Source: Porphyra umbilicalis
Taxonomy: Eukaryota > Rhodophyta > Bangiophyceae > Bangiales > Bangiaceae
Assembly: GCA_002049455.2 (NCBI GenBank)
Contig: KV918790.1
Location: 365,721-429,720 of the forward strand
Reading direction: 5' to 3'
DNA length: 64,000 bases
Numbering within the stretch: position 1 is the first letter of the stretch; each line of letters opens with the position of its first letter. A program made the translations under genes and the position numbers. A model generated the notes under the pieces. The model was not told the DNA's origin and made no database searches. It saw nothing but the letters and a program-made list of their open reading frames with translations. Below are positions 46,753 through 50,137 of this stretch, one piece after another.

Positions 46753-47886
46753 CTATTCCGCCTTCATCGCATACGCTTCTTCCCGCTGCTCGTCGAACAG
46801 AGCCGACGTCAGGTAGCGCTCGCCAAACGAAGGCGCAATGAACACAATGTTCTTGCCCTGCATCTCGGGGCGCTTCCCCACCTCGAGCGCCGCGGCCAGC
46901 GCCGCGCCCGTCGAGATACCCGACAGGAGGCCCTCTTCCACCGCAATGCGGCGCGCCATCGTAATGCTCTCTGCCGACGTGACGGACACGACCTCGTCGT
47001 ACACGGTCGTGTCCAGGATGGCCGGTACAAAGCCGGCGCCAATGCCCTGGATCTTGTGGGGACCGGGCTTGCCGCCCGACAGAACCGGCGACTCGACGGG
47101 CTCGACGGCAACGACGAGCGTCTCTGGGTTCTTCTCCTTGAGGTAGCGCCCCGCGCCGGTGATGGTGCCGCCCGTGCCGACGCCCGACACGAACACGTCG
47201 CAGTCGATAGCGTTGGCAATCTCGGGGCCAGTCGTCTCGTAGTGGGCCTTGGGGTTGGACGGGTTGGCAAACTGCTGCAGGATGTACGAGTCGGCCGTCT
47301 CAGCGGCAATGGCTTCCGCCTTGGAAACCGCCGCCTTCATCCCACCAGCGGCGGGAGTCAGCACCACCTCGGCGCCAAAGGCGCGGAGCACCATACGGCG
47401 CTCAATCGACATTGAATCTGGCATGGTCAGGATGAGCTTGTAGCCCTTGGACGCAGCGATAAACGCGAGCGCAATGCCCGTGTTGCCCGACGTCGGCTCC
47501 ACGAGGACGGTCTTACCCGGGGTGATCTTGCCCTCCGCCTCGGCATCCATGATCATGCCGCGGCCGATGCGGTCCTTGACCGAAGAGCATGGCTCCATGG
47601 ACTCGAGCTTGGCATAGATGTTGGCAACGCAGCCCGCCGCGTCGGGGATCTTGTGCAGCTGCACGAGGGGGGTGTTGCCAATCAGGCCGGTAGCGTCCGT
47701 GACCGGCGCTTTCTTGTTCATGGCCGCAGCCGACATCATGGCGGCCGACATACCGGCGGCAACCGCGCAAGGAGGCGACGGAGCAATGACGGGGGTGCCG
47801 GTGGCAAACGTGGAGCGAGCGCCGCACAGCGCGGGTGATGGGGATCGGCCGAGAACGGCGGGGCTCGCGGTGGACACGAAAGCCAT
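46753..47886 (-). CDS. Cysteine synthase (O-acetylserine (thiol)lyase), plastid-type
   Basis: The enzyme makes cysteine from O-acetylserine and sulfide with pyridoxal phosphate. The PLP lysine is K104 in SSVKDRIG, the phosphate and substrate loop is [12 protein letters not shown], and the PLP-phosphate loop is [10 protein letters not shown]. The family sequence [20 protein letters not shown] is present. The ATG at 47886 gives 377 residues, of which the first 55 or so are Ser/Ala/Pro-rich, without acids, and look like a plastid transit peptide. The frame is open upstream but only through a TTG. The catalytic core is complete, so sulfide assimilation in the plastid is the likely role. Single exon. 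Confidence 0.95.
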
Positions 47887-48726
47887 CAAAGACAGGCGCG
47901 GGCACAACGGGGGTCAAAAGGAGAGACGAAAGAAGGAGCGTTGGACAAGGAGGACAGTGTATCCGTTCGGGCGTGGAACTGGAGTGACTGGAGGGTACCA
48001 AGAATGAGCACTGCGGCCGCGTGACAGGCAACAGCCGAGTTTTGTGAAAAGCACGCAGGGGTGCCAGAGCACTTTGATCGAGCGGGGGGACTCCTTTGCT
48101 GGAGCCAGGGCCAGAGAGAATCGCCACGCTAACGCAGTCCAATCTCCAACTGACGGGGACTCTGAACGCGCGCTCTGGTTGGTCAAAGAAAGATCTCACA
48201 GAGCAAGGCAGAGACCTGGTGGGCCGGCGAGAGATATTTCTTTGACCTTAAAACGTGGTTCTTTTCTGTTGGCTGATCACCGCCAGCCACGTTTCTACTT
48301 CTCCATGTTTCTTAGAGAAAACCGCTTGTGGATTTCAAAAGATTCGGTGCCCTGGAAAAAGGTAGCCACAGCAGATGGCGGAACACGCGTGCGGATATCC
48401 ATGTCCATGCCTCTTGCGCTGGCGACACTGAGCCCATGTTGTGAAACTCCAGACATTCACCCTCGCCACAACTACACGCTGGGTTTCAAAGAGGAGACTG
48501 TGGACGTCAGCGAGTCGAAGCCGGGCCGTGGCGAGCTCCGCGTCATGGTGGTGCTGTTGTTGGACGAGCGCGGTTTAGTGTCTGGAACTGCTTCCCTGTT
48601 GGTGCGCGAAGACGTATTATACTGCAATGCACCCGGTGGCTTGATGAGCTCGTTTCCGGGCGCTTCTGGAAGCCACTTTCGGCAACCCACAGGTCTACGG
48701 AACGATGCCAGAATTGAGAAAAACGG
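47887..48726. other. Intergenic; a 254-residue plus ORF here is not supported
   Basis: This is the 5' region of cysteine synthase. A plus-strand frame at 48044-48808 has no recognised motif and overlaps the tRNA gene, so I treat it as chance. Confidence 0.5.
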
Positions 48727-48733: not shown

Positions 48734-48819
48734 AGGCACAACTGGGACTTCCGTTTCATGCTTCGAACCCAGGATCTTATCATTACGAGTGACACGCTTT
48801 ACCCCTAAGCCATTGCGCC
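48734..48819 (-). tRNA. trnT: tRNA-Thr(CGU) with a 14-nt ectopic intron in the T loop
   Basis: Read on the minus strand, acceptor GGCGCAA pairs with TTGTGCC (one G-U), the D arm is GCTT/AAGC, and the anticodon arm TGTCA/TGATA encloses CTCGTAA, giving anticodon CGT. The T stem CTGGG pairs with CCCAG only if 14 nt (48748-48761, gcatgaaacggaag) are removed; this restores the standard loop TTCGAAT. A one-base shift of the intron is equally possible on sequence alone. The body closely resembles eukaryotic tRNA-Thr(CGU), including TGGCTTAG, AGATCCTGGGTTCGA and discriminator T. There is no intron at the usual position 37/38. The intron splits the B-box promoter before its last CC. Confidence 0.9.
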
Positions 48820-49082
48820 TGTCGTTGCAATGCCGCACCTTGTACCAAAATTTATTCCCGTTTTGTACGAACCCGTCCGGGTGCGCGTTCCACCCCGCTT
48901 CAACTCATTGCGTGCGCGCCCTCCTTCGCTGGCCACTTGTCCTTCCGCCGTCCTCCTCGCCCCCCCGCCATCCCTGCCACCCCTCTCCGTCCCTCTGACG
49001 GCCGACCCCCATTGCCGCACGCGCTACCGCCCTCCCCGCTCACAACCCCCCTGCCGCCCCCCCCCCGACGCGCGTCGCTGCC

Positions 49083-50137
49083 ATGGCCGCCGCCTTTGCC
49101 GCCCCGTCCGCGGTCGCCGTGCGCCGCCCGACGGCGGCCGCCACAACGACCGCCCGCCCCGCCGCGCCGCTCGGCACGTGCGCCTTTACCCCCGCCGCGG
49201 GCGCCGCCCGCTTGGCGGCGGCGGTGGCGCGGCCCGCTGGTCCCCCCCCCCCCCCTCGGGGCCGACCGCGCCCGTCTGCGACGGGACGGTCACTTTCCCG
49301 TCCGACTTGGACGGCACCAAGCTCCGCGTCGGTATCGTGTCGGCGCGCTGGCGCGATGATTTGACGGGGCCGATGGTGGCTGACGTCCTCAAGGGCCTCG
49401 CCGAGCGGTCGGTCAAGGACGACAACATTGTGCAGATGGAGGTGCCGGGCTGCGGGGAGCTGCCGGTCGCCGCGCGGCTGATGATGGCCACCCAAAAGGT
49501 CGACGTGGTCATTGCCGTTGGCGTGTTGATTGACGGCGCCACCGACGGGTACACGTTTATGTGCGAGGCGGTGTCCAACGGGCTGATGAACGTACGTTGT
49601 TTTGGGGTGGGGCGACCCCGCGTGGGTGCCCCGGGGGCCTGCTGTTGCTGACCATTGCGCTGAGGGGTTGTGATCGGGCGCGCTGGCCCGTGCGGAGTGC
49701 TCCCTTTGCCTGTCGGCCCCGCGGCGCGACCAAGTCGACGTCGTGATCGACACGGTCAGCGTCCGCGGTCGTGTGTGTCAATAGCCGACTAACCCGTCCT
49801 GCAACCCCCCTCGTCCATTGCCATTTTGACCGCGTGCCTCGCCCTCTTCCACCCATTGTACGCGCCCACGGGTCACGCATCTCTGCACCTTTCCTCCCTC
49901 CCATCGGCGTCGCCCCCCCCCGCACCGTGGCCCCGCCCACAGCTCCAACTAACGGCGGCCATCCCCGTCATCTTTGGGGTGCTCACATGCGCCACGCCCG
50001 AGCAAGCCGAGGCGCGCGCGACGGGCGACAAGAGCCACGCCGTCGACTGGGCGGCGACGGCGGTGGAGATGGGCGTCCTCCGCAGCAGCCAGATTGGCAA
50101 CTCGGCGCGCGCCAAGGCGTCGGTCGGCTTCTCCTAG
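49083..50137 (+). CDS. 6,7-dimethyl-8-ribityllumazine synthase (riboflavin pathway), one intron, poly-C frame break
   Basis: The enzyme condenses 5-amino-6-ribitylaminouracil with dihydroxybutanone phosphate, the penultimate riboflavin step. Exon 1 is 49083-49591 and exon 2 49943-50137 (intron GTACGT...CCCACAG, phase 0). The core reads LRVGIVSARW, NIVQMEVPGCGELPVAA, VDVVIAVGVLIDGAT, then across the joint LMNLQ and IPVIFGVLTCATPEQAEARA, most like fungal-type lumazine synthases. The first 55 residues, from ATG 49083, resemble a transit peptide. They are joined to the core only if the C14 run at 49242-49255 changes by one base. At 49541-49552 the sequence reads T-D-G-Y where the family has T-x-H-[YF]; the catalytic histidine is therefore absent. 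Confidence 0.85.

Follow-up and report, generated by a model that had tools for sequence, protein, structure and literature searches.

A tRNA-Thr(CGU) gene with a probable ectopic T-loop intron in the red alga Porphyra umbilicalis

The window analysed here, a stretch of 64,000 nucleotides of Porphyra umbilicalis DNA, contains a tRNA-Thr(CGU) gene with 14 additional nucleotides in its T loop, which raises the question of whether this is a working gene with an intron at an unusual position or something else. We consider it highly probable that this nuclear gene, denoted C30, is functional in its host, a Bangiales red alga, and that its T loop carries an ectopic tRNA intron at 59/60, which is spliced via a bulge-helix-bulge (BHB) structure. 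The gene and its main parts are:

48734..48819, minus strand: tRNA-Thr(CGU) gene including U73, 72 nt of exon and 14 nt of intron (from the sequence and from identical exons in C14, C30 and C420)
48785..48787, minus strand: anticodon CGU (from the sequence)
48748..48761, minus strand: 14-nt T-loop intron GCAUGAAACGGAAG, between positions 59 and 60 (from the uninterrupted paralogue C14 and the pairing register)

C30 consists of 85 nt (48735-48819, minus strand) plus the discriminator U73 at 48734, and is flanked on its two sides by open frames with a PLP-dependent enzyme domain (46756-47913, minus) and a lumazine synthase domain (~49322-49597, plus). As claimed in the sequence-only reading of this DNA, the acceptor (GGCGCAA/UUGUGCC), anticodon (UGUCA/UGAUA, enclosing CUCGUAA) and T (CUGGG/CCCAG) stems close, the discriminator being U; the D stem (GCUU/AAGC) closes as well. 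Before splicing, the T loop comprises 21 nt, UUCGAA-GCAUGAAACGGAAG-U, and the intron splits the B box after GGUUCGAA; removal of the 14 nt leaves 72 nt with the T loop UUCGAAU. The gene was missed by ARAGORN and by Rfam at the gathering cut-off, the score with the Rfam tRNA model being 20.5 bits, below the cut-off of 29. The window by itself does not define where the insert begins and ends, as other 14-nt removals leave a plausible 7-nt loop (by hand); these alternatives are ruled out by the sequence of C14, which fixes the junction at 59/60.

A DNA search of the genome with the C30 gene identified four tRNA-Thr(CGU) places, three of them interrupted at one and the same junction and one empty. 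The paralogues recovered by this search are:

C14:353878-353949: tRNA-Thr(CGU) gene with no insert, T loop UUCGAAU
C420: tRNA-Thr(CGU) gene with an 18-nt insert at 59/60
C187: tRNA-Thr(CGU) gene with a 16-nt insert at 59/60

Spliced C30 equals C14 over all 72 bases, that is, a complete tRNA is restored, which bears out the earlier identification of a tRNA-Thr(CGU) with 14 nt in the T loop. The tRNA in C30 is not a chance likeness: C14 has the same 72 exon nucleotides without a break, and in two further copies, C420 and C187, this junction holds an insert. C30, C420 and C14 are identical over the 72 exon bases, and C187 differs at 2 of 72, one of the changes turning a U-A pair of the T stem into U-G; the free exon decay expected of a tRNA pseudogene is not observed in the four copies (0-2 differences of 72). 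The inserts share only 9/18, 11/17 and 11/19 identical aligned columns in pairwise comparison. From these alignments, the combination of kept exons and diverging inserts is the apparent footprint of selection for the spliced product. In the flanks, C30 and C420 have CATTGCAAC in common just upstream (flanks L031, L032, L033 and L034; by eye), and C14 and C187 share CGAACGATG about 30 nt downstream (by eye), hinting at two duplication pairs and a loss of the intron in C14.

The sequence-only reading held that the rules of the splicing endonuclease do not apply directly to an intron so far from the anticodon. They can apply, given that U54-G57, next to the T stem, are paired with part of the insert, with a 3' bulge of 3 nt left over. 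The two strands of this helix are:

48764..48767, minus strand: 5' strand of the central helix, U54 U55 C56 G57 (minimum-energy fold of the T arm)
48750..48753, minus strand: 3' strand of the central helix, intron CGGA, followed by the 3' bulge AG^U (minimum-energy fold; pairing register)

When the T arm of C30 is folded on its own, the minimum-energy structure prolongs the T stem by U54-G57/CGGA, with AGU as the 3-nt 3' bulge, and places the 5' site AA^G in a 10-nt apical loop. The BHB structure that had been proposed as a check is therefore present in part: the 4-bp helix and the 3' bulge AG^U are found, but the second flanking helix is absent, which makes this a relaxed bulge-helix-bulge, a kind that also occurs at 37/38. 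The T arm of C187 folds with the same 4-bp helix, a bulge CG^U and, additionally, a small hairpin within the intron. The T-loop introns of C420 and of the Asn, Asp and Pro genes described below form 3 of 4 pairs each, and their minimum-energy T-arm folds differ from the assumed register; by hand, a one-base shift for C420 and a 60/61 boundary for the Asn gene both gave fewer pairs and were rejected. When whole precursors are folded, the helix is kept in C30 and lost in C187, but this is a weak test, because the uninterrupted C14 also yields no cloverleaf.

The intron of C30 is very likely removed by the BHB route. Under the mechanism that we propose, RNA polymerase III would transcribe the gene into a precursor whose T stem (49-53/61-65) is prolonged by the 4-bp helix between U54-G57 and intron CGGA. 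The Sen2/Sen34 endonuclease would make both cuts, the 3' cut in the 3-nt bulge (AG^U) and the 5' cut in the apical loop (AA^G) of the relaxed structure, and a ligase, possibly the encoded RtcB, would rejoin the halves to form the T loop UUCGAAU, yielding a tRNA that would be used in translation. The C30 intron is one member of a genome-wide set located at 20/21 (D loop), 37/38 and 59/60 (T loop).

This set was compiled from an Rfam tRNA family search run twice (63 of 1261 candidates scored), from DNA queries and from reading of the loci, so that the resulting census of 56 nuclear tRNA genes covers those recovered by the searches rather than the entire tRNA complement. Wherever an uninterrupted paralogue was available, it guided the manual assignment of intron ends; for Arg, none was found. 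An insert is present in 35 of the 56 genes and 21 are uninterrupted; 6 have a T-loop intron, 16 a D-loop intron, 10 an intron at 37/38, and 3 combine D-loop and 37/38 introns, so that a D- or T-loop intron is found in 25 genes, among several isoacceptors. All inserts, as assigned, fall at 20 or 20a/21, 37/38 or 59/60. Apart from the three Thr genes, T-loop introns occur in Asn C365 (16 nt), Asp C137 (11 nt) and Pro C50 (26 nt); the six reside on six contigs, with six different inserts at one junction. The D-loop (20/21) introns belong to Asp, Asn, Arg, Lys, Glu and Pro genes. Within families, paralogues can serve as mutual empty sites, as in Asn, where the sole intron of C432 lies in the D loop and that of C365 in the T loop. 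Among the Pro genes, C50 has the T intron, C196 the D intron, and C285 and C25 none, and among the Asp genes, C137 has the T intron and eight others the D intron. The Lys and Glu genes that combine a D-loop intron with one at 37/38 are:

C350:12610-12785 (L115)
C85:160-335 (L116)
C448:15910-16050 (L114)

The 56 genes include both of two Val genes with identical flanks on C515. Excluded from the count are tRNA-like repeats on C62, C60, C77, C3 and C141 (a C62 member with a CGU loop being treated as a repeat); a truncated Lys gene (C425:49745); organelle- or bacterial-like tRNAs on C115, C409 and C10; 11 Asp copies lacking a normal 5' acceptor on C394, C271, C36, C24 and C628; Ile-like repeats (C57, C507), two uninterrupted Pro-like genes (C547) and mirror copies (C27, C350); as well as unread matches at C271:5832, C271:30098, C457:13399 and C147:46287 and all tRNAs of the plastid contig. 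That plastid-like contig, C665, encodes a SecY with 95% identity to a cluster named for Bangia fuscopurpurea and no more than 68% to the remaining 119 of the 120 proteins listed (8,000 scored), which places the genome in a Bangiales red alga. In genome searches run without a positive control, a combined probe covering Trp, Phe, Tyr, Gln, Cys and His gave no match, and one for initiator Met, Ser, Leu and Ala matched initiator Met alone.

Some of the excluded sequences appear to be parts of repeats. Pieces of tRNA-Asp recur every ~5-16 kb on C394, C36, C24, C271 and C628 (L074-L087, L101, L102), some with a normal 5' acceptor and others with a common sequence ending in GATAAACT, or near it, directly before the D arm. 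Among the nine normal copies, six match the L076 repeat in the downstream flank only and three in neither flank; in the seven altered copies that were compared, both flanks match it. This arrangement looks like a repeat element inserted within tRNA-Asp genes. An open frame across one Asp piece (L079) matches a copia-type gag, and 9 further frames tested gave no match. In another tRNA-like family (L040, L043, L045, L057, L058), some members are truncated at the T loop and adjoin GC-rich sequence; these are possibly tRNA-derived repeats. Repeated units on C57 and C507 (L089, L095-L098, L103) have an Ile(AAU)-like tRNA core, for which an ectopic intron and a repeat are both possible readings.

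Pairing was also counted over the whole set. In the predicted register, the six T-loop introns, which represent four isoacceptor families, form 20 of 24 pairs (shuffle mean 11.9; 20 pairs reached by 5 and 3 of 20,000 shuffles in two runs), the 19 D-loop introns 59 of 76 (mean 37.1; reached by 0 of 20,000), and the 13 anticodon-loop introns, that of Gly C27b having been trimmed by hand to 11 nt, 43 of 52 (mean 22.4; 0 of 20,000), although these shuffle counts overstate independence because introns within a family are related by descent, two Arg genes being almost identical. When the register is slid by -2 to +3, pairs fall to 9-12 for the T-loop and 14-39 for the D-loop introns; for the anticodon-loop introns, a shift of +3 leaves the count high, at 36 of 52. 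Transposition of intron sequences between isoacceptors receives weak support from sequence similarity: 12 of 300 shuffled sets also attained the best cross-family score, 11 (Arg C475 vs Asp C188), and the mean over 523 cross-family pairs is 3.98 vs 3.80 for shuffled sequences. Taken together, the empty-site paralogue, the near-identical exons with diverged inserts, the pairing in the BHB register and the genome-wide recurrence at fixed sites support the original interpretation of the insert as an intron.

For some isoacceptors, ectopic splicing appears to be indispensable. Spliced Asp, Asn and Arg(ACG) queries gave 30 matches in a loose first-look search of the genome, of which 0 covered the whole tRNA without a gap or break and 4 partial ones are unread. 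Uninterrupted genes for Asp(GUC), Asn(GUU) or Arg(ACG) did not turn up, so that, given a complete assembly and search, splicing has to take place at sites other than the anticodon loop; judging from the genes at hand, it is very probably needed to decode Asp, Asn and Arg(ACG) codons. The same does not follow for Thr(CGU), because C14 is uninterrupted and C30 could be dispensable.

Putative Pol III signals lie on either side of C30:

48727..48731, minus strand: T5 run, a probable RNA polymerase III terminator (enrichment of T4 or longer)
48847..48856, minus strand: AATAAATTTT at -37 to -28, a possible TATA-like element (AT enrichment)

A run of T4 or longer lies within 30 nt downstream of 34 of 43 tRNA genes, including all 6 with T-loop introns, against 50 of 1026 background 30-mers, and the mean AT content in 5-nt bins from -50 to -26 is 0.63-0.73 over the 43 genes, against a background of 0.40. 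The genome also encodes candidate splicing machinery. The catalytic domain of the tRNA-splicing endonuclease (PF01974) is found above the cut-off at two loci, C104 and C7, which, by eye and from known motifs, we take to be Sen34-like and Sen2-like, respectively, and an RtcB ligase gene is present at C294 (PF01139; two matching pieces in a single open frame, the best at 396.8 bits).

Several other explanations of the insert have to be weighed. C30 could be a pseudogene that was damaged by a short insertion and is silent or gives an unusable tRNA, with C14 supplying the tRNA; an intact intron-free tRNA-Thr(CGU) gene elsewhere had indeed been named beforehand as part of what would point to a pseudogene, and the identical C14 is such a gene. 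Precedent is on the same side: according to PMC4090602, a eukaryotic tRNA gene with an insertion in the D or T arm mostly has many synonymous copies and is presumed to be a pseudogene. This explanation is nevertheless outweighed and appears unlikely: three Thr paralogues are cut at one junction and yet retain 70-72 of 72 exon bases while their inserts have diverged, Asn, Asp and Pro genes have inserts at this T-loop site as well, C30 is followed by a T5 run, and the spliced-query genome search found no uninterrupted Asp, Asn or Arg(ACG) gene.

It is harder still to accept that the insert is retained and that the tRNA works with a T loop enlarged to 21 nt, even if all four stems of C30 are able to close with the insert in place. 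Such a loop would lose the contacts between the D and T loops, and the T-loop inserts, which vary from 11 to 26 nt with little sequence conservation, do not resemble a kept part of the molecule. An assembly or sequencing artefact, conceivable insofar as one genome was examined, has a negligible chance of producing six different inserts at an identical junction in genes that each lie on a separate contig. Self-splicing of the group I or group II type was rejected, the inserts of 10-35 nt being too small for a ribozyme.

The functional gene with a spliced T-loop intron thus stands as the preferred reading, and the genome-wide pattern suggests that the tRNA splicing enzyme of P. umbilicalis is not bound to the usual anticodon site. 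We lean, with only slight preference, towards a broader scenario in which the enzyme of the seaweed lineage was freed from the anticodon, introns were rapidly gained and lost among paralogues at 20/21, 37/38 and 59/60, the Asp, Asn and Arg-ACG families came to rely wholly on ectopic splicing, and this state may be ancestral to red algae instead of being a quirk of Cyanidiophyceae. If true, the range of ectopic tRNA introns, which takes in nucleomorphs and a single-celled red alga of hot springs, would widen to an order of seaweeds, and the standard tRNA annotation of such genomes is incomplete. The coexistence of paralogues with and without the insert in a single genome makes intron gain, loss and recognition directly testable. 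In the open-licence PMC literature, we found no report of ectopic tRNA introns in Bangiales. A codon-usage study that relied on default tRNAscan-SE reports that the major tRNA gene for Thr in Porphyra umbilicalis is Thr(CGU), with tRNA introns unmentioned in its section 10 (PMC10496412); hidden introns could account for the gaps that are linked there to C. merolae and C. yangmingshanensis.

Among known systems, introns at 37/38, standard in eukaryotes, are also present in P. umbilicalis (13 read), and the same endonuclease presumably acts on both kinds; the C30 intron differs by its position in the T loop, far from the anticodon, where it splits the B box. The non-canonical tRNA introns of Crenarchaeota, as described in PMC4090602, share the two ectopic sites, 20/21 and 59/60, and the pairing rule, but are archaeal, whereas the introns described here belong to a eukaryotic nucleus with Pol III-like signals. 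The nucleomorph of Guillardia theta (Kawach et al. 2005, via PMC4090602 and PMC3978253), the remnant of an algal nucleus, likewise has D- and T-arm introns, the excision of which was observed by RT-PCR according to the review; these are 3-24 nt long and many are described as lacking a defined BHB, in contrast to the 10-35 nt and the BHB-register pairing at the D and T sites here. The closest counterpart is the red alga Cyanidioschyzon merolae, to which the sequence-only reading aptly pointed: its nuclear tRNA genes (Soma et al. 2007, 2013, via PMC3978253, PMC4090602 and PMC9602550) have short introns in the D, anticodon and T arms with BHB-type junctions, some genes contain several introns, and the catalytic Sen subunits are encoded. 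In these sources, however, the C. merolae sites are scattered over the cloverleaf (e.g., 12/13, 53/54 and 55/56, the latter two being those given for the T arm), whereas here only 20(a)/21, 37/38 and 59/60 are assigned, and intron-bearing and uninterrupted paralogues occur together in an 83.8-Mb Bangiales genome. C30 is best read as having a real ectopic tRNA intron of a kind already known from C. merolae and archaea; what is new is that the host belongs to the Bangiales, that the introns are restricted to three loop sites, and that paralogues with and without them occur side by side.
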